From: Bacteroidia bacterium
GTDB taxonomy: Bacteria; Bacteroidota; Bacteroidia; JABDFU01
Assembly (NCBI GenBank): GCA_020849195.1
Contig: JADLGT010000329.1
Span: 1 to 12,106, forward strand
Length of the DNA: 12,106 nt
Direction of reading: 5' to 3'
Shown here: piece by piece, positions 194 to 9,061 of the stretch
Layout: every line of letters starts with the position of its first letter
Numbering within the stretch: position 1 is the first letter of the stretch
Notes under the pieces: generated by a model
Seen by the model: only the letters and a program-made list of their open reading frames with translations
Database searches by the model: none
Told to the model about the DNA's origin: nothing
Made by a program: the position numbers and the translations under genes

Positions 194-3004
194 ATGAAAA
201 AACAACTCCGCTTTTTTCGTATCCCCGCTTTAATAGTTGCGAGTGTTGGTGTTTTTGCACAAAACATCCCGATCACTATCGAGATGGCTACCCCTGATGC
301 TGCGGGAAGATCGGAAGCATTAAAAACCCTGAATGTAACAGGTATGCTCTTCACTAAAAATGAAGGTCAAGTTGCCGATATAAATGGTAATACTGTTCCC
401 TCAGCGCTATTTAAGTCACAAGCAAAAGGAGTCGATATCTATTTACGAAAAACAGGATTTAGTTATGTTTTTAGTAACCAATCAAGTGTATTACCCGAAC
501 TGGATAATCAATTAGAAACAGCAAATGTCCTCGGTTTTTATAATGGTAATGAAGAAAAAATTAAAAGAGATATTTTATTGAAAACAAAACTTAGATTACA
601 CAGAATTGACATGGATTTTGAAAATATTAATTTGAATATCGCAGTTCAGTCCGTTGGTATGTCGGAGGCGTATGAGAATTTTTACAACTCGCATTGTTTA
701 CAAGGAATAACGAATGTTAGATCTTTTAATAAAATAATTTATAAAAATATATATAACAAAATAGATGTTAAGTTCACCGGCAGTACAGAAAAAGGACTTA
801 AATATGATTTGATTATACATCCCGGAGGCAACCCGAGTGATATTAAATTAAAATACAGTGGAGCAGAAGCGATATCAATTATTAATGAAAAATTGAGAAT
901 ACGAACGAGTATAAATGAGTACGAAGAGTACATCCCTAAAGCATATCAAATTATTAACGGGCAAGTAGTTGATGTTAAAGCAAAATATGTACTTAATGGC
1001 ACCATGGTAAGTTTTGCATTTGAATCTGTTAACAGAAAGCGGACCTGGGATCCCGAATTTCCATTAATTATTGACCCTGCAACATGGATTACGTACTATG
1101 GTGGTAATGGCGTAGGACAGGAAGAGGCAGGTTCTGTAGCTGCCGATGCCCTTGGTAATTCGATTTATTCCGGGCGCGTTTCCAATACCGGTTTTCCGGT
1201 AAGTACCGGTGCTGCTCAGGTAATGCTTGGCGGAAGCATTGATGCTTTTGTAGTTAAAATGAATCCTGTGGGTGGACGAGTTTTTTCTACTTATTTTGGA
1301 GGGACAGGTTTTGATACCGGAGAGGGTATAGATACCGATATAAATAACGATATTATATTAACCGGCGGCACATACTCAGCCAACCTGCCCACCAAAATAT
1401 GGGGTGCCGCTTTTATGAAAACTATTTTTAGCGGTGGTGGTGGAGCCGACGCTTACATTGCTAAATTTTCCTCGACCGGCACCTTGATTTGGTCAACCTA
1501 TTATGGTGCAGCCGGAGTAGGTGATGATTGGGGCGTGGACATTACTTCGGATGGGCTTGGGAATATAGTGTTTGCAGGATACACGTCATCAGCTGCGTTT
1601 CCTACTCAAGCTCCATTTCAACTAACATTAAATGGTCCAATAGATGGATTTGTAGTAAAATTCTCTAATATGGGTGTGAGGCAATGGGCTACTTTTTACG
1701 GAGGGTCTAATCCGGGTGGTGTTGTAGGTGAATTTATATATGGAATAACCGTAGATCCATTAAATAATATTTATGCATGTGGGAAAACAAATTCAAATTC
1801 GTTTCCGGTTGTATTGCCTTATCAGCCTTCAAATGCAGGAGCGCTTGGATCGGAAGACGCTTTTATATTTAGGTTAAATCCGACAACAGGCTTCCCTGAT
1901 TGGTCAACTTATTACGGCGGTCCCGGACAGGATGCCGGAACAGCAATAGCAACTGATGGTTTAGGAAATGTTTTCCTTGCATTAAGCTCAACCTCCGCTT
2001 TGTCAATTACAACAGCAGGCACATTTCAAACTACTCTCAACGGACCACAAGATGCCGCACTTATAAAATTCGCAGCAAATACCGGTATGCGAATTTGGGG
2101 TACTTATATTGGTGGCTCCATTGGAAGCGTTAATCCGGGTTTAGACTATCCTACAGGACTTGATGTAGATTCGAGAAACAATATTGTAATTTCCGGAGAT
2201 ACTTACAGCTCGGATTTCCCGGTAACCGCTTGTTCATCTCAACCTACTTTTAAAGGAACGGAAGATATTTTCATCAGCACATTTAATCAACAAGCAAAAC
2301 TTATTTGCTCCGGTGTATTAGGAGAAAATTTAGTTCCACATAATGAAACGTATTATCGGGGTGGCAGTATCGCAGTTTCCGGTTCATTTGTTTTCCTGCA
2401 TGCCTGGAGCTATTGTAATTTTCCGGTAACGCAGGGTGCTTACCAAACTTTATGTGGAGGATCGTCTGATGTTGTTTTTGCCAAACTATGTATTTATAGC
2501 TGCGGAATTCCAAATACAACGGCATCTTTTGTTAGTGCAAATAATGTTTGCATAGGTATTCCTGTAAACTTTACATTAAGCTATATCTCATGCGATACAA
2601 CAAATTCAAGTTATTTATGGACTTTTACCGGCGCCGTTCCCGGCACTTCAAATGTGCAGCAACCGACCCATATTATTTGGAACTCACCGGGTACTTTTCC
2701 GGTATCTGTTACTATCTTTTCTAAATGCGATACAACTGTCATTTCATATCCGAATTACATTTCCGTAACAAATTGCGGCTGCACACTCACCGCCCAATAC
2801 ACCAAAGGCACCGCCAACTGCAGCAACTGCGGCTGCAAAGAATGGATAATGGTAAATGCAACAGGTGGTACAGCGCCGTATAGTTACACATGGTCCGATG
2901 GGTACGTGAACAGGTATAAAAATGGATTATGCCCCGGTGCATATTTAATTAATGTGAAGGATAAAAATGGATGCTCAGTAAACTTGAACGTGAATGCGCC
3001 ATGA
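194..3004 (+). CDS. Secreted SBBP beta-propeller protein with DUF7948-like head, PKD-like domain and Cys-rich SprB-like C-terminal module
   Basis: This is an exported 936-residue repeat protein. A basic-hydrophobic signal peptide covers residues 1 to about 22 (MKKQLRFFRI start, VFA-Q cleavage region). Residues ~53-295 contain the FTKNEGQ motif and end in PLIIDP, as in the DUF7948-like head that precedes SBBP repeats in Bacteroidota proteins. Residues ~297-760 hold six SBBP beta-propeller units, each opening with a T[YF][YFI]G motif. Residues ~775-860 resemble a PKD/Ig-like fold (YLWTFTG, SPGTFPVSVTI). Residues 868-936 are the 69-residue Cys-rich module also found in the next two large genes. 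There is no VYPNP-type T9SS type A sorting domain and no FSPNGDG type B signature. The ATG at 194 is chosen because it starts directly at the signal peptide. The next gene starts 46 bp downstream, so cotranscription is likely. A surface or matrix role is inferred; no enzymatic motif is visible. Confidence 0.88.
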   Translation: MKKQLRFFRIPALIVASVGVFAQNIPITIEMATPDAAGRSEALKTLNVTGMLFTKNEGQVADINGNTVPSALFKSQAKGVDIYLRKTGFSYVFSNQSSVLPELDNQLETANVLGFYNGNEEKIKRDILLKTKLRLHRIDMDFENINLNIAVQSVGMSEAYENFYNSHCLQGITNVRSFNKIIYKNIYNKIDVKFTGSTEKGLKYDLIIHPGGNPSDIKLKYSGAEAISIINEKLRIRTSINEYEEYIPKAYQIINGQVVDVKAKYVLNGTMVSFAFESVNRKRTWDPEFPLIIDPATWITYYGGNGVGQEEAGSVAADALGNSIYSGRVSNTGFPVSTGAAQVMLGGSIDAFVVKMNPVGGRVFSTYFGGTGFDTGEGIDTDINNDIILTGGTYSANLPTKIWGAAFMKTIFSGGGGADAYIAKFSSTGTLIWSTYYGAAGVGDDWGVDITSDGLGNIVFAGYTSSAAFPTQAPFQLTLNGPIDGFVVKFSNMGVRQWATFYGGSNPGGVVGEFIYGITVDPLNNIYACGKTNSNSFPVVLPYQPSNAGALGSEDAFIFRLNPTTGFPDWSTYYGGPGQDAGTAIATDGLGNVFLALSSTSALSITTAGTFQTTLNGPQDAALIKFAANTGMRIWGTYIGGSIGSVNPGLDYPTGLDVDSRNNIVISGDTYSSDFPVTACSSQPTFKGTEDIFISTFNQQAKLICSGVLGENLVPHNETYYRGGSIAVSGSFVFLHAWSYCNFPVTQGAYQTLCGGSSDVVFAKLCIYSCGIPNTTASFVSANNVCIGIPVNFTLSYISCDTTNSSYLWTFTGAVPGTSNVQQPTHIIWNSPGTFPVSVTIFSKCDTTVISYPNYISVTNCGCTLTAQYTKGTANCSNCGCKEWIMVNATGGTAPYSYTWSDGYVNRYKNGLCPGAYLINVKDKNGCSVNLNVNAP
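1084..2475 (+). repeat. Six SBBP beta-propeller repeats
   Basis: The repeats are recognised in the protein by the recurring motifs TYYGG, TYFGG, TYYGA, TFYGG, TYYGG and TYIGG. These are followed by an aspartate- or glycine-rich turn, a DxxGNIxxxG-type strand and a FP-containing strand (GFPVSTG, AFPTQAP, SFPVVLP, DFPVTAC). Spacing is about 55-75 residues. This is the established SBBP (beta-propeller repeat, Pfam SBBP) signature. Nucleotide similarity between units is low, so the duplications are old. Confidence 0.8.
2795..3001 (+). repeat. C-terminal Cys-rich module, copy 1 (69 residues)
   Basis: This encodes residues 868-936, ending at NAP-stop. The cysteines are 876, 879, 881, 913 and 927. 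The first part carries the Cys cluster and KEWIMV. The second part reads like a SprB repeat (ATGGTAPYSYTW, LCPGAY, DKNGC). Bases 2795-2855 are identical over 61 nt to 5415-5475, and 2804-2853 match 8861-8910 at 49 of 50 bases. After that block the copies diverge freely. Within the block, TGCAGC (2819-2824) and GCTGCA (2832-2837) could form a 6-bp stem with a 7-nt loop. Confidence 0.9.
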
Positions 3005-3050
3005 CAGAGAAGCCATTGCTTTATACTATCCCCCAAAGAAACATCGTGCA

Positions 3051-5624
3051 ATGAAACATACAAACACCGGGTTTTTAAGCAAAGTGAATTTACTTTTGGT
3101 TTCGATATTAATTATTGGATCACAAAACTACTTTTGTCAAATTCTTCAAGCTGTATCTTCGGTCGCAAATGCCAGCTGGACAATAAAAGACCCTTTCGAA
3201 CAAAAAGTTTTTATCGAAAACAAAGGGCAGTTTTACAATGAAAATATAAAAGAAAGTAATAGTGCGCATTACATAATTGACAATGCCGGAACTAAAATAT
3301 ATTTTTCTTCAACCGGACTAACGTATGAATTTAAAAAGTATGTGAAAAGAAAGAGGGACAAAAAAGAAAATAAAAACGAGAAGCACAATGATGAATACGA
3401 AGAAGAGAGAGAAAGAGAGAAAGAAGAGCATAACATAGCTTTTGAAAACATACTTGTAAGTATGCAATGGCAAAATGCCAACCCTGCAGCAGGTCTAATA
3501 GCTGAAGAAAAGGTCGCTGATTATTATACGTATGCTGATCCCAAAGGAAGGACTGCCGCCATTCTATCGAATGCGTACAAAAAGCTTATCTATAAAAATC
3601 TTTACCCGGGAGTAGATGTCGAATATGTTTTTCACGAAACAGAGGGAATTAAATACTCGCTTGTGCTTCATCCGGGTGCCGATGCAAGTGCTATTAAAAT
3701 GAAATATTTCTCATCGGAAAAAATATTTTCCGATGCAGCAGGAAATATTCATATACCAACACCGGTTGGGGACATTATCGATCATGCGCCTCAAACGTTC
3801 TACGAAAAAACAAGATCCCCCATAACCTCAGACTTTAAATTGAATAGGAACATTGTAGAGTTTAACCTTGCCGTATATGATGATAGCCAAACTGTTGTGA
3901 TTGACCCATGGGTTATAAGCCCAGGATTTACAGGCGTAAACAATGCCTACGACATTGATAAAGACGGAGCCGGCAATATTTATGTTTCGGGAGGAGCAAG
4001 TCCATTTTATTTGAAAAAGTTTACACCTGCGGGTGTACTTATCTGGACATTTACCTGCCCTGCTAACGGCGGTCCTTATTATGGAGATCATTGCGTTGAT
4101 AATGCCGGAAATGCTTATTTATCATACGGCTCATGGAGAGGCTCTGAATTAACGAAGGTAAGTCCTTCAGGGATCTTGCTCTACTCATACCTGAATGTTC
4201 CTATTGAGTCGAGCGCAGAGCTTTGGCGTTTAACAATTAACTGTATATCGGGTGAATTAATCGGAGGAGGAATAGTTTTTAAGACTATTAACCCAATTTT
4301 ATGTAACATAAACCCTGCCAATGGAACTTATAGCAACTTTGTAACCCCTTATCCCAATCAGACAAAAACAGAAGTGCGATCACTTACTAATGATGAAGCA
4401 GGAAATATTTACGCATTAACAGTAGACATGACGTATCCTGTACCTAATTCGCCCGGTATTAATAATAGAATTATAAAAACAACACCGGCTGCAGGCGGAC
4501 TAGCTACTTTGTTTAATGTTTCAAGTGGCTATACGTTGAATGAAGGCGCTTGCGGTTACGCATTGGGTACAGGCCCCGGCGGAACGTACTTAGATGGATT
4601 TTCAGGAGTAAACGCAATTGCTGTTGGCTGCGATTTATATACGTACAACGGGCTTACGTTGAAACGATGGAACAAAAACACCGGTGCTCAAATAGGAGCA
4701 AATGTAAATGTACCGGGAGGTGTTGTAATACAAGGCAATTTAAAAAATGCCGGAATTGTCGTAGATAAATGTGGAAATGTTTATGTTGGAATAGTTAACG
4801 GAATTGCAAAATACGATGATGCACTTAACTTTATCTCTACCGTTGCAATGCCATCGAATGTATATGATATTTGTCTTGGAAATATACCGGGCGAGATTAT
4901 AGCGTGTGGCAAAGGCTTTATATCATCTGTTAATATGAATGTTTGTACACAGTTCAGCGTTACAAAATCATCTACTCCATCTCTCTCTTGTTCTCCCTGT
5001 AATGGTACAGCAACAATTGATTTAAACGGGATATGCAATGTTTCGTATTTATGGGCGCCGACAGGCCAAACCGGGGCAACAGCAACAGGTTTATGCCCGG
5101 GTAACTATACAGTGACTATATCAAGCAGTTGCACCCCGCCACAAGTTGAAACATTTGCTATTACCGGTAGCCCCTGTGGCGGTCCTGCTGTTATAGCAAC
5201 CGGCAGCTCCATTTGCTACGGTGCTTGCGCCACAGTAACTTCAAGCGTTTCAGGCGGAACAGGTTCATACACTTATTCGTGGAATACCGGCGCAACAACA
5301 AAAGACATAAACCCCTGTCCAACCATTACAACAACCTATACGGTTAAAGTAACCGATGCCGGAGGTACCACTGCCACTTCAACAGCGGTGGTGACGGTAA
5401 ATAACATCAATGCTCAATACACCAAAGGCACCGCCAACTGCAGCAACTGCGGCTGCAAAGAATGGATAATGGTAACCGGCACAGGGGGAACACCACCGTA
5501 TAATTACCAATGGCCCGATGGGTACGATAAACGCTATAAAAATTCGTTATGTCCGGGTGCATATAACGTAATTGTTACTGATGGTAATGGTTGCAAAGCA
5601 ACAGTGAAGGTCAATGCGCCGTAA
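3051..5624 (+). CDS. Secreted DUF7948-head beta-propeller-like protein with Ig/SprB-like domains and Cys-rich C-terminal module
   Basis: This is an exported protein of 857 residues from the ATG at 3051. That start is preferred over the upstream in-frame start at 2994 because it opens on a signal peptide (MKHTNTGFLSK, hydrophobic stretch, NYFCQ) and does not overlap the previous gene. Residues ~54-285 form the same head as in the preceding protein (FIENKGQ, IYKNLYPGVDVEY, LHPGADAS, VVIDPW). The head is interrupted at residues 95-126 by a highly charged insert. Residues ~290-630 are a propeller-like region (DKDGAGNIYVSGG, DNAGNAYLSYG, DEAGNIYALT, DKCGNVYVGI). Two Ig/SprB-like units follow (~634-784; GATATGLCPGNYTVTIS, GSYTYSWNTGATTKD), then the 69-residue Cys-rich module at 789-857. 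No T9SS sorting domain is in frame. It is a head-and-tail paralogue of the preceding gene with a different middle. Its function is unknown. Confidence 0.86.
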   Translation: MKHTNTGFLSKVNLLLVSILIIGSQNYFCQILQAVSSVANASWTIKDPFEQKVFIENKGQFYNENIKESNSAHYIIDNAGTKIYFSSTGLTYEFKKYVKRKRDKKENKNEKHNDEYEEEREREKEEHNIAFENILVSMQWQNANPAAGLIAEEKVADYYTYADPKGRTAAILSNAYKKLIYKNLYPGVDVEYVFHETEGIKYSLVLHPGADASAIKMKYFSSEKIFSDAAGNIHIPTPVGDIIDHAPQTFYEKTRSPITSDFKLNRNIVEFNLAVYDDSQTVVIDPWVISPGFTGVNNAYDIDKDGAGNIYVSGGASPFYLKKFTPAGVLIWTFTCPANGGPYYGDHCVDNAGNAYLSYGSWRGSELTKVSPSGILLYSYLNVPIESSAELWRLTINCISGELIGGGIVFKTINPILCNINPANGTYSNFVTPYPNQTKTEVRSLTNDEAGNIYALTVDMTYPVPNSPGINNRIIKTTPAAGGLATLFNVSSGYTLNEGACGYALGTGPGGTYLDGFSGVNAIAVGCDLYTYNGLTLKRWNKNTGAQIGANVNVPGGVVIQGNLKNAGIVVDKCGNVYVGIVNGIAKYDDALNFISTVAMPSNVYDICLGNIPGEIIACGKGFISSVNMNVCTQFSVTKSSTPSLSCSPCNGTATIDLNGICNVSYLWAPTGQTGATATGLCPGNYTVTISSSCTPPQVETFAITGSPCGGPAVIATGSSICYGACATVTSSVSGGTGSYTYSWNTGATTKDINPCPTITTTYTVKVTDAGGTTATSTAVVTVNNINAQYTKGTANCSNCGCKEWIMVTGTGGTPPYNYQWPDGYDKRYKNSLCPGAYNVIVTDGNGCKATVKVNAP
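3333..3428 (+). other. Charged low-complexity insert in the head domain
   Basis: Residues 95-126 of the 857-aa protein run from a Lys/Arg-rich half (KKYVKRKRDKKENK) into a Glu/Arg-rich half (EEEREREKEE). At the DNA level this is a purine-dominated stretch of aag, gaa and aga codons. The corresponding place in the preceding paralogue (after YVF at about residue 93) carries an ordinary sequence. It is probably a solvent-exposed loop or short charged helix. A repeat-driven expansion is possible. Confidence 0.75.
5415..5621 (+). repeat. C-terminal Cys-rich module, copy 2 (69 residues)
   Basis: This encodes residues 789-857 of the second large protein, with cysteines at 797, 800, 802, 834 and 848. 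The spacings are identical to copy 1, with no gaps. The first 20 residues are identical to copy 1 and their DNA is identical too (61 nt). The remaining 49 residues match copy 1 at only 30 positions. It ends NAP and is followed directly by TAA. Confidence 0.9.
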
Positions 5625-5648
5625 AAAATTAGTTTAAACACTAATTTT
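5625..5648 (+). terminator. AT-rich inverted repeat right after a stop codon, possible transcription terminator
   Basis: AAAATTAGT (5625-5633) and ACTAATTTT (5640-5648) are perfect 9-bp complements around a 6-nt loop, starting at the base after the TAA. The right arm ends in TTTT, with another TTTT at 5652-5655. The stem has only two G-C-containing pairs, so it would be weak. Position suggests a 3' end for the transcript of the two upstream genes. Confidence 0.4.
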
Positions 5649-5677
5649 GCATTTTAAGTTCAACACCCTAATGTAAA

Positions 5678-5971
5678 GTGTGTTGGCATTGTTTTAATTC
5701 CGGCACACCAACCGGCATTCAACCGAATGAAGATGAAAGTAAAGTAACTGTTTATCCAAACCCTGCATCATCATTAATTTATATTACTGTTGATGATTTT
5801 AAAACAACCGGTGTTTTAAAATTTTATGATATGCTTGGACAAGAAGTGAAGAATGTTTTACTCTTAAATCCAATTACAATTGTTAATACGGATGATTTGA
5901 ATAACGGACTCTATATTATAACTGCCGGTAAAATAAAACGACCAGTTATAATAAACAAGGAGCTCAAATAA
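5678..5971 (+). pseudogene. Orphan T9SS type A C-terminal sorting domain (fragment without passenger)
   Basis: This is an open frame of 97 codons whose residues ~10-97 are a complete type A sorting domain. It has a TGIQPNEDE linker, the VTVYPNPASS motif, a strand with ITV, the LKFYDMLGQEV motif, DDLNNGLYIITAG and a basic end (VIINKELK). Such domains normally sit at the C-terminus of T9SS cargo and are cleaved at the outer membrane. Here there is no signal peptide and no passenger. The only start is a GTG at 5678, with no ribosome binding site. An in-frame TAA at 5669-5671 closes the frame just upstream. It lies in a different frame from the preceding 857-aa gene, which ends 53 bp before. It is most simply the 3' remnant of a lost or rearranged cargo gene. 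The domain shows no internal stops, so separation may be recent. A translated 97-aa protein cannot be excluded. Confidence 0.7.
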
Positions 5972-6022
5972 TTGAATGTTTAGGTCGCTATTGTAAGAGC
6001 CCCGAATAGTTAATGTACGCTA

Positions 6023-6068
6023 TTATACCAATTTTATTTATATTTTAGTCCAATCAATAGTGGTATAA
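6023..6068. repeat. Spaced 8-bp inverted repeat upstream of the kelch/SprB gene
   Basis: TTATACCA (6023-6030) and TGGTATAA (6061-6068) are perfect complements separated by 30 nt of AT-rich sequence, ending 20 bp before the ATG at 6089. The spacer contains TATATTTT (6039-6046), one mismatch from the TAnnTTTG box, but no TTTG lies at the expected distance upstream. It could be an operator-like site, a leader hairpin or chance in AT-rich DNA. Confidence 0.3.
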
Positions 6069-6088
6069 CACAACACCCTGCGGACTGA

Positions 6089-9061
6089 ATGAAGCTATTC
6101 TATAATAGATATATTAGGGGTAATAAAAAATTTCTTTTCTGTCTTATCGGTATTGTATCAGGTTCAGTTTTTTCTCAAACCAATATGTGGGTATGGAAAA
6201 AAGGCGACCTGGTTGCCGGATCTCCGGGCACACCCGGCACAACGGGGATATTCGCACCTGCTAACATCCCCCCGGGCGTGTATGGCGCTGCATATTGGAC
6301 TGGCAAGGATGGATACTTCTATATTTTTGGCGGATACAATAGTGCCTCAACTTATGAAAAAGCTTTGTGGAAATACGATCCCCATCCGGGACCAACTTAT
6401 AACCAATGGATGGTGGTATGGAAATACAATGCCGCAGCTCCTGTAGTTACTCCAGGAATATTTGATGCCGCATATGGCCCCGGTGCAAATACAACGTTGT
6501 GCTATGCGACATGGGTTGATGCATCAGGTTATCTTTGGCTGCTTGATGGCGCGCAAGCCATGTGGAAATACGACCCGAACCCGGGTCCAACATTTAACCA
6601 ATGGGCAAGGATGCATATTGGAGGACTTGCCTTATATGGCGTTCAGGGGATTCCCAGCCCATCTAATGTTCCACCATCAAGGGGAGAAAGTGTATGTGCA
6701 TGGACTGACAGTAAAAATAATTTGTGGCTTTTCGGTGGCCAGGCTTTGTTGAATGATCTTTGGAAATATGATATTGCTGTAAATCAATGGACTTGGGTGA
6801 GTGGTGATAATATAATAAATCAAAACCCTGTGTATGGTATAAAAGGCACACCCAATGCTGCAAATAAACCGGGTGCAAGATATCAATATTTACATTGGAT
6901 AGACAAGAATGATAATTTATGGTTGATGGGAGCATCCGGAAAAGGAACCGCCGGAACTACCGGTTATCAAAATGATATGTGGCGGTATGACCCCGCTACA
7001 AATTTATGGACTTGGGAAGCAGGGACGAACAACGTGTATGTGGGCGGAACAGTTTATACTTATACACCCGGAACTATTTGTGTTGAAGGGGAGCCAAATG
7101 TCCCGGCACCAATCGAGATGCATGAAGCCCGCGCCCAATGGACAGACTCTTGCGGTAACTTTTGGTTTTTCGGATCCCACCAGGGAAGAGTATGGAAATT
7201 TCGTCCCTCAACCAAACGATTTACTCTTATAAGTAACAAGCCGAACAACAACCCTGTGAGAGGGACGATGGGCGTACCTGCAGCAGCCAACACTCCGGGA
7301 AATTACGATGGCGGTGTTCCGTTTCAGAACAACGAAGGATTTTGGTTCTGGTATGGTGAAGGAGCATTCGTTTCAAACTCCAAATACAACGATCTGTGGC
7401 TATATATTCCTGATAAGCCAACGGCAAATTATACTTATGTTGCATCTGTATGTGGAAATGGCAATGTGAATTTCACAAGCACCAGTGTTCCGAACTGCAA
7501 TGAAATAAAAAGTTACAAATGGGATTTTGGAGATCCGGGTTCGGGAGGCGCAAACAATTCCTCTCTTGCTACACCGTCTCATGTTTATCCGGCAACAGGA
7601 AATTATTCAGTAAAATTAATCGTAACAAGTTGCACAGGCAGCAAAGATTCTATTACCCAAACAATTAATGTACCGGTAAGTACTCCCTGGACATTGGGAT
7701 CATCTTCTACTTTTTCAAATTGTAATTCTTCAACCGGCTCAGTAACACTAACCATTTCCGGCGGGTCTGTTAATTACACTTACAATTGGAGCAATGGTGC
7801 CTCAACAATTACATCAGCAGGTTCAAATACAATTACCGGTCTTTCTGCAGATACCTATACTGTTACCATTTCGGATGCGACGGGATGCACTACCAGTTCG
7901 GTGGTAGCTGTTACCAACCCCGCTAAGCCTTTGATTACAGGTATGCCCGTTACGCTAAATGGTCTTTGCCCCGGTACGGTAACCGGAAATATATCAGTAA
8001 CAATTACCGGTACTGCTCCAATACTATATACGTGGAGTACAGGAGCAACAACCGCGTCTGTTTCAAATCTTAATCCGGGCGTGTATGGTGTTACTATTAC
8101 CGATGTAAACAATTGTACAGCTGCTCAGAACACATCTATTTTTGATGCAACACCTGTTTTGATAAATACAACTTCCGTTAAGGCTAATACATCATGCAAA
8201 TTTCCGAATGGTTTTATCTGGGTTAACGTATCGGGTGGAAAAGCACCTCTTACTTATCTATGGAACACAGGCTCCACAGCAAGTGCACTTTACTCCGGGC
8301 TGAGCGCCGGAACATATACCCTTTCAGTTACTGATGCAAACAATTGTACTGTAACAAAATCGTTTACTATAACAGAACCTTCCATTAACATTGCGATCTC
8401 TGCTGGGCAGATAGTATGTTCGGGAGGTTCTGCAAGTGTTACTGCGACCACATCAAGTGGTACCGCCAACTACACGTATTCGTGGAGTACCGGCGCAAGT
8501 GCCGTTACATCTTCTCTTACCAATGCTCAAATTTTAACTGCAGGAGTTTATGTTGTTACAATAACTGATAACAATGGTTGTACATCTTCTACAAGTATTA
8601 CATTAACTGCACCCGATCCTATAACTGTAAACATCAGTACAGTACTCCCATTGTGTGCCACTCCAACCGGCGAAGCTACAGCTTTACCGACCGGAGGAAC
8701 CGGAACATATACTTACTTGTGGAGTAACGGTTCCACAACACAAACAACTTCCGGCCTTGCTGCCGGAAATTATACGGTTACTATTTCCGACGCTAATAAT
8801 TGTACTGCAATAAAGGTGGCGACAATAACCCCACCATCACCGCTGACTGCCCAATTTGTAAAAGGCACCGCCAACTGCAGCACCTGCGGCTGCAAAGAAT
8901 GGATAATGGTTAACGCAACAGGCGGAGCAAGCCCCTACAGCTACACGTGGCCCGATGGAAATACCAACAGATACAAAAATGGGCTGTGTCCGGGAACCTA
9001 TACTGTTATTGTGAAAGATAAGAATGGGTGCAGTGTGAATATAAACGTAAATGCACCCTGA
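6089..9061 (+). CDS. Secreted kelch/galactose-oxidase-like propeller protein with PKD domain, five SprB repeats and Cys-rich C-terminal module
   Basis: This is an exported protein of 990 residues. The signal peptide is residues 1 to about 30 (basic start, FLFCLIGIVSGSVFSQ). Residues ~31-437 are a kelch-type beta-propeller. Blades are marked by LWKYDPHPGP, MWKYDPNPGP, LWKYDIAVNQW, MWRYDPATNLW and VWKFRPS. They alternate with a GxxGxPxxxNxPG motif (GIPSPSNVP, GTPNAANKPGAR, GVPAAANTPG) known from kelch proteins of this kind. Residues ~441-528 are a PKD domain (YKWDFGDPG, PSHVYPATGNYSVKL). Residues ~530-920 are five SprB-type repeats (Y[TL]W[ST]TG, L..GxYxVTITD.N.CT). Residues 922-990 are the Cys-rich terminal module. 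It has no type A or B T9SS sorting domain. SprB repeats are known from the gliding adhesin SprB of Flavobacterium, so a surface adhesin or matrix role is plausible, but gliding cannot be concluded from this window. The ATG at 6089 starts directly at the signal peptide. Confidence 0.88.
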   Translation: MKLFYNRYIRGNKKFLFCLIGIVSGSVFSQTNMWVWKKGDLVAGSPGTPGTTGIFAPANIPPGVYGAAYWTGKDGYFYIFGGYNSASTYEKALWKYDPHPGPTYNQWMVVWKYNAAAPVVTPGIFDAAYGPGANTTLCYATWVDASGYLWLLDGAQAMWKYDPNPGPTFNQWARMHIGGLALYGVQGIPSPSNVPPSRGESVCAWTDSKNNLWLFGGQALLNDLWKYDIAVNQWTWVSGDNIINQNPVYGIKGTPNAANKPGARYQYLHWIDKNDNLWLMGASGKGTAGTTGYQNDMWRYDPATNLWTWEAGTNNVYVGGTVYTYTPGTICVEGEPNVPAPIEMHEARAQWTDSCGNFWFFGSHQGRVWKFRPSTKRFTLISNKPNNNPVRGTMGVPAAANTPGNYDGGVPFQNNEGFWFWYGEGAFVSNSKYNDLWLYIPDKPTANYTYVASVCGNGNVNFTSTSVPNCNEIKSYKWDFGDPGSGGANNSSLATPSHVYPATGNYSVKLIVTSCTGSKDSITQTINVPVSTPWTLGSSSTFSNCNSSTGSVTLTISGGSVNYTYNWSNGASTITSAGSNTITGLSADTYTVTISDATGCTTSSVVAVTNPAKPLITGMPVTLNGLCPGTVTGNISVTITGTAPILYTWSTGATTASVSNLNPGVYGVTITDVNNCTAAQNTSIFDATPVLINTTSVKANTSCKFPNGFIWVNVSGGKAPLTYLWNTGSTASALYSGLSAGTYTLSVTDANNCTVTKSFTITEPSINIAISAGQIVCSGGSASVTATTSSGTANYTYSWSTGASAVTSSLTNAQILTAGVYVVTITDNNGCTSSTSITLTAPDPITVNISTVLPLCATPTGEATALPTGGTGTYTYLWSNGSTTQTTSGLAAGNYTVTISDANNCTAIKVATITPPSPLTAQFVKGTANCSTCGCKEWIMVNATGGASPYSYTWPDGNTNRYKNGLCPGTYTVIVKDKNGCSVNINVNAP
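7680..8847 (+). repeat. Array of five SprB-type repeats
   Basis: Five units of about 75-80 residues each start near a conserved Cys and carry a GG or SG turn, a Y-[TL]-W-[SN] strand, G[AS][TS]T, an L-x-[AP]-[GD]-x-Y strand and a final TD-x-N-[NG]-C-T. Cores are NYTYNWSNGAS, PILYTWSTGAT, PLTYLWNTGST, NYTYSWSTGAS and TYTYLWSNGST. They match the established SprB repeat family. The terminal module is in effect a sixth, modified unit with a different Cys-rich front half. Confidence 0.82.
8852..9058 (+). repeat. C-terminal Cys-rich module, copy 3 (69 residues)
   Basis: This encodes residues 922-990, with cysteines at 930, 933, 935, 967 and 981, the same spacing as the other two copies. Bases 8861-8910 match copy 1 at 49 of 50 positions, the one change giving Asn to Thr. 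It begins QFVKG where the others have QYTKG. Its tail is closer in protein to copy 1 (39 of 49 residues) than copy 2 is, but with many silent differences. It ends NAP then TGA. Confidence 0.9.

Follow-up and report, generated by a model that had tools for sequence, protein, structure and literature searches.

The three genes of the window and their terminal domain

The window analysed here is a 12,106-nucleotide stretch of contig JADLGT010000329.1 (assembly GCA_020849195.1) from a Bacteroidia bacterium. It contains three open reading frames (ORFs) on the forward strand, whose products all end in a closely similar domain of 69 residues, referred to here as the tail. ORF 1 (194..3004, 936 aa) codes for a signal peptide, a DUF7948 domain, SBBP propeller repeats, PKD and the tail. 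ORF 2 (2994..5624, 876 aa as listed) comprises DUF7948, a propeller-like part, SprB-like repeats and the tail, and ORF 3 (6089..9061, 990 aa) a signal peptide, kelch, PKD, SprB repeats and the tail. The tail domains are located at 2795..3001, 5415..5621 and 8852..9058, each followed directly by the stop codon, and the third was also used for a structure model.

An earlier note on this DNA had described three gap-free, five-cysteine tails of 69 residues, and translation and alignment bore this out at all three positions. The tails of ORF 2 and ORF 3 were 72% and 81% identical to that of ORF 1, and 44 columns were invariant, including all five cysteines with the spacing CxxCxC, +32, +14. The DNA copies (214 nt) showed 79% and 75% identity to the first copy. 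Chance likeness of the tails was excluded, with E values of about 1e-45 for each.

A profile was built from the three tails, and the genome holding the window (G000, 67.5% complete) was compared with its congeners G001 to G005; these were all six genomes of the family given by the search. At a threshold of E <= 1e-15, G000 contained 18 matches (17 full copies and one piece), G002 contained 51 and G004 at least 143, while none was found in G001, G003 and G005. Since scoring was limited to 150 of 1,249 candidates in G004 and to 150 of 702 in G002, the count of 143 is a minimum and that of 51 possibly so. The 17 full-length copies of G000 scored 136 to 157 bits, followed by contig-edge pieces at 88 and 55 bits; at 51 bits or less, ordinary SprB repeats were mixed with further contig-edge pieces. 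A codon pattern for CGCKEW occurred at 19, 42 and 119 places in G000, G002 and G004, respectively, and at none in G001, G003 and G005, and the reversed pattern used as a control occurred at no place in any of the six genomes. The tail genes of G004, at least 143 in number, were estimated to occupy about 452 kb, which is near 10% of 4.5 Mb. This estimate was calculated with the mean length of 101 listed frames, counted from stop to stop.

In the loci examined there were 167 matches of at least 60 bits, duplicates included. All 166 of these that covered profile positions 40-60 and lay in a frame with a stop codon ended within three residues of it. Between 40 and 60 bits, 13 matches were internal and 50 lay in frames without a stop, and between 20 and 40 bits 393 were internal, one was terminal and 191 lay in stop-less frames. 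The strong matches were thus terminal and not internal to SprB arrays. After removal of duplicates 160 distinct tails remained, and in 158 of them the last matched residue was the end of the protein. Gapless 69-mers with CxxCxC in register accounted for 142 of the 160, and 16 had two extra residues between cysteines 3 and 4. The same NAP-stop end noticed in the window was found in G000 but was no general rule, as the 160 tails ended most often in LTAP (54), LTTP (19), VNAP (17) or LSAP (12).

The class as a whole was surveyed with a broadened profile at E <= 1e-18, with at most 15 candidates scored per genome. Matches were obtained in 29 of 395 genomes, namely three of the genus, G028 (family f24), six of family f23 and 19 others. 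G028 had three copies, all strictly terminal. In family f23 the frame ended 0 to 3 residues past the match in six of six genomes (one locus read per genome). In all 19 other genomes the best match was internal. Divergent, strictly terminal relatives of the tail are thus present in two further families of the class, and their common pattern is a triple cysteine (C.CPC or C..C.C) together with W..G...[RQK][YF]. The terminal signature, written as an expression, matched at 167 places (158 in the genus, three in G028 and six in f23), all of them terminal and none internal. As the expression was derived from known tails, the terminal count is not independent, and it is the absence of internal matches that is informative. 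When the front and [RQK][YF] were left free, 211 internal SprB cores matched. It is near certain that the tail is a dedicated terminal domain, as the earlier note had argued from its placement in three proteins.

Relation to SprB repeats and to known sorting domains

Comparison of the tail with SprB repeats by hhalign gave a probability of 98.9%. In Pfam, the isolated tails matched SprB (PF13573) at 31.0, 22.4 and 22.5 bits, one of the three exceeding the cut-off of 28, and other Pfam matches were weak and unconvincing. The core GG, PY.Y.W, G, LC.G.Y and D.NGC is common to SprB repeats and the whole tail. Judged by sequence and model, the tail is a whole SprB-type immunoglobulin-like (Ig-like) repeat over its full length. 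The proposal of a separate new domain in the cysteine-rich front half was rejected, as the SprB homology spans the whole tail and the front half has its counterpart in the C.G.CNG stretch of an ordinary repeat.

The tail nevertheless differs from these repeats in two respects. It was always terminal here, whereas SprB repeats are internal units of arrays, such as the tail-homologous repeats of ORF 3 at 7661..8812, which lack the tail signature. Furthermore, CxxCxC-KEW, RYK and the closing proline belong to the tail only; only tails that were terminal and had C14 and W17 entered this comparison, and these two positions are therefore conditioned. The repeats of the grappling hook protein GhpA of Aureispira (9flp, 9flw) also differ from the tail in being internal, in a chain of 5,898 residues.

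An AlphaFold model predicted a small beta-sandwich for the tail with a predicted local distance difference test (pLDDT) score of 85. The alignment for this model had 74 rows (26 tails and 48 internal repeats), and because the internal repeats had been added, the fold leans on the SprB homology. An earlier model from the 26 tails alone was poor (pLDDT 59) and was not used. A Foldseek search with the tail model gave no match at E up to 0.001.

The conserved cysteines allow a reading in which the tail is a cap for surface assembly or cross-linking. The cysteines would then connect one exported protein with another or with a partner, and export would depend on another signal. Five cysteines, an odd number, were kept by their spacing in 159 of 160 tails and in none of 721 internal repeats, and internal SprB repeats are parts of adhesins. 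We consider such a cap possible but unlikely. The non-cysteine KEW and RYK are equally invariant, the f23 relatives and two of the three G028 copies keep the cysteines without KEW, and no other sorting domain was found on the tail proteins.

The last point was derived from a comparison with the C-terminal domains (CTDs) of the type IX secretion system (T9SS). PMC10202324 lists CTDs of types A, B and C, and our search of the literature on T9SS CTDs, largely at the level of search listings but including PMC12618676, gave these three types only. Type A and B ends in database proteins were judged by our own models, each made from 20 CTDs of congeners. For 120 listed of 135 database proteins, 102 had a terminal tail and none of these 102 had a type A or B end, while 17 of the 18 proteins with internal matches only had a type A or B CTD. 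In G004, the tail list and the type B list had no frame in common.

The isolated tails gave no sequence match to type A (TIGR04183, PF18962) or to type B (TIGR04131, PF13585), and the hhalign probabilities were 5.2% and 0.9%, respectively, compared to the value near certainty obtained with SprB repeats. The type B model is also about 20 residues longer than the tail, although type B resembles the tail in ending homologous DUF7948/SBBP passengers in congeners. Type C (ChiA, cl41395) is, according to PMC10202324, likewise a C-terminal region that belongs to neither type A nor type B. At E up to 1 the isolated tails matched no NCBIfam family; the presence of the type C model in this library was unchecked, and no comparison with type C by name was made. 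Neither Pfam nor NCBIfam, nor the hhalign comparison with types A and B, thus gave a match to any defined sorting domain over the full length of the tail. That the tail is a divergent member of type A, B or C missed by the models seems extremely improbable to us in the light of these searches.

Passenger proteins and the alternation of their ends

The three passengers of the window had been regarded as different. This was correct for ORF 3 with its kelch, PKD and SprB parts, but ORFs 1 and 2 are related and both carry DUF7948 (PF25778), at 350..1078 (E 6.9e-50) and 3210..3911 (residues 73-306, E 1.1e-44), respectively. Nor were the passengers highly varied in general, as DUF7948 was present in 86 of the 101 tail frames that were long and complete. 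We know of no function for this domain. The genomes G000 to G005 have 23, 16, 59, 42, 140 and 1 copies of it, and the numbers are high where the tail is abundant.

In the tail-free genomes G001 and G003, 16 DUF7948 proteins ended in a type B and one in a type A CTD. In G000, G002 and G004, 93 ended in the tail, nine in type B and one in type A; these counts leave out 13 frames that had no single recognised end, and the loci of the tail genomes had partly been chosen for tails. A check of lists from G004, with loci not chosen for tails, gave 84 DUF7948 proteins, of which 48 had the tail, six had type B and 30 were undecided. On a tree of 120 DUF7948 domains the kind of end changed at least 16 times, compared to 21 to 27 times with shuffled labels. 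The kind of end is therefore partly clustered on the tree and has changed repeatedly.

All 27 proteins with a type A or B end could be aligned with a tail protein over 791 to 1,732 columns at 29 to 52% identity. In the pair L240/L086 the homology extends through the PKD domain, after which one protein continues with an Ig-like repeat followed by a type B CTD and the other with the tail alone. From the residues shared by tails only, we favour the view that the tail is a common cassette put in place of the CTD.

Eight DUF7948 frames in the G004 loci (L087, L095, L100, L101, L105 and others) ended without a recognised domain. Some of them look frame-shifted, for which phase change or an error in assembly may account. 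In G004 a kelch protein (L083:840-2027, + strand) ends in a type A CTD, and the kelch protein of the window, ORF 3, in the tail.

Export context and a possible sorting role

Signal-peptide-like starts were recognised by a heuristic in all three ORFs of the window (194..262, 3051..3140 and 6089..6178) and in 73 of 101 long tail frames. Twenty of the 28 negative frames were read, and most had a hydrophobic start, while two did not clearly have one. The true start of ORF 2 is more likely position 3051, where its signal peptide begins. PorU exceeded the cut-off in five of the six genomes, and type A and B CTDs were present in all six.

Because the tail is terminal and conserved, occurs on signal-peptide proteins without other CTDs and alternates with type B on like passengers, it is most simply read as another CTD. 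By sequence it is neither type A nor type B, and on present evidence it would work like a CTD. It occupies the place at the protein end where the known T9SS export tags are normally found, and is probably a tag for export or anchoring of a kind not yet described. It is likely that it represents an undescribed class of T9SS CTD made from an SprB repeat, with a role in sorting or surface targeting.

Several points weigh against this reading. Profile comparison shows hardly any similarity of the tail to types A and B. Nor is an Ig-like fold distinctive, and numerous unrelated chains with such a fold tie with the RgpB CTD. In a second set of proteins, obtained from a G028 relative, 47 of 71 with internal matches had a type A or B end; the other 24, many of them partial records, also had no such CTD by the models, so that a missing type A or B CTD alone proves little. 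No shuttle gene recurring beside the tail genes was found by neighbourhood, and PorP/SprF was not searched by a model. Finally, in 16 of the 27 aligned pairs the last half of the tail aligned weakly with the Ig-like repeat before the type B CTD, and the tail may be the last repeat left after loss of the CTD rather than an inserted CTD.

In the extreme form of that view, the tail is an ordinary SprB repeat that became terminal by loss of a type B CTD and has no sorting role, and the likeness among tails is due to recombination. Besides the homology to SprB repeats and the 16 pairs, the copies in G000 are in accordance with it. In the 17 tails of this genome the first 20 codons agreed at 0.79 at synonymous sites (0.46 expected) and the remainder at 0.55 to 0.62, which suggests recent homogenisation or spread of the front by recombination. 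The first 60 nt or so of the window tails (2795-2854, 5415-5474 and 8852-8911) are almost identical among the G000 copies, synonymous sites included, which is not the case in G002 and G004. In those two genomes (99 tails in G004 and 25 in G002) the synonymous codon agreement was only 0.48 to 0.53, compared to 0.40 to 0.46 expected from codon usage, so that the fixed tail residues are held by selection. As, in addition, the terminal signature is found again in two further families but in none of the 211 internal cores, we consider an ordinary last repeat very improbable.

If the tail is a T9SS CTD, the protein would be exported by Sec via its signal peptide, and the tail would fold into the modelled beta-sandwich. 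The translocon or a shuttle of the T9SS would then read the CxxCxC-KEW and RYK positions together with the exact C-terminal strand, and the passenger would cross the outer membrane and be held at the surface or released. The involvement of the T9SS, the part that is read and any cleavage or linkage of the tail are what we infer.

The genes downstream of ORFs 1 to 3 code for DUF5606/DUF6852, an M3 peptidase and a DinB-like protein. A dedicated shuttle recognisable by gene neighbourhood was considered and rejected, as the 85 non-tail neighbours in the G004 loci formed no group larger than two apart from a family of about 515 residues and pieces of DUF7948. A PorU-like protein of 1,696 residues (L197:710-6902, - strand) lies after a PorV-like gene (23.6 bits, cut-off 27) in G000; a frame akin to it is present in G004, and a similar end in G001. 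This frame, to which one in L177 is similar, was rejected as a dedicated second sortase, as frame L178 of the tail-free G001 has a like C-terminal end, judged by eye.

The protein of about 515 residues has no signal peptide and adjoins tail genes on the opposite strand. It is distantly related, below the cut-off, to NF058569, the BT2802 family. In the examined loci of G004, G002 and G000 it was represented by 45, 15 and 5 distinct frames, examples being L090:3541-5079 (+), L092:17399-18943 (+), L106:6240-7790 (-) and L104:4850-6394 (+). It may be a per-gene regulator. A more specific version of the CTD reading, which we regard as rather doubtful, is that the tail is a CTD which anchors the protein by a cysteine. 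On export, the invariant fifth cysteine in the CxxCxC front would link covalently to another tail, a surface partner, a glycan or a lipid, and well over 100 interchangeable surface proteins of a single genome would share a common plug. Many of them lie beside their own copy of the cytoplasmic BT2802-like protein, which may act as a separate regulator for each gene.

CTDs are a means of finding T9SS substrates in genomes. Should the tail be one, the T9SS cargo of a single genome would include well over a hundred surface proteins that have so far been overlooked. It would also mean that a sorting signal can evolve out of a common adhesin repeat and interchange with older signals on a given kind of passenger, and this interchange could be used directly to study recognition by the T9SS.
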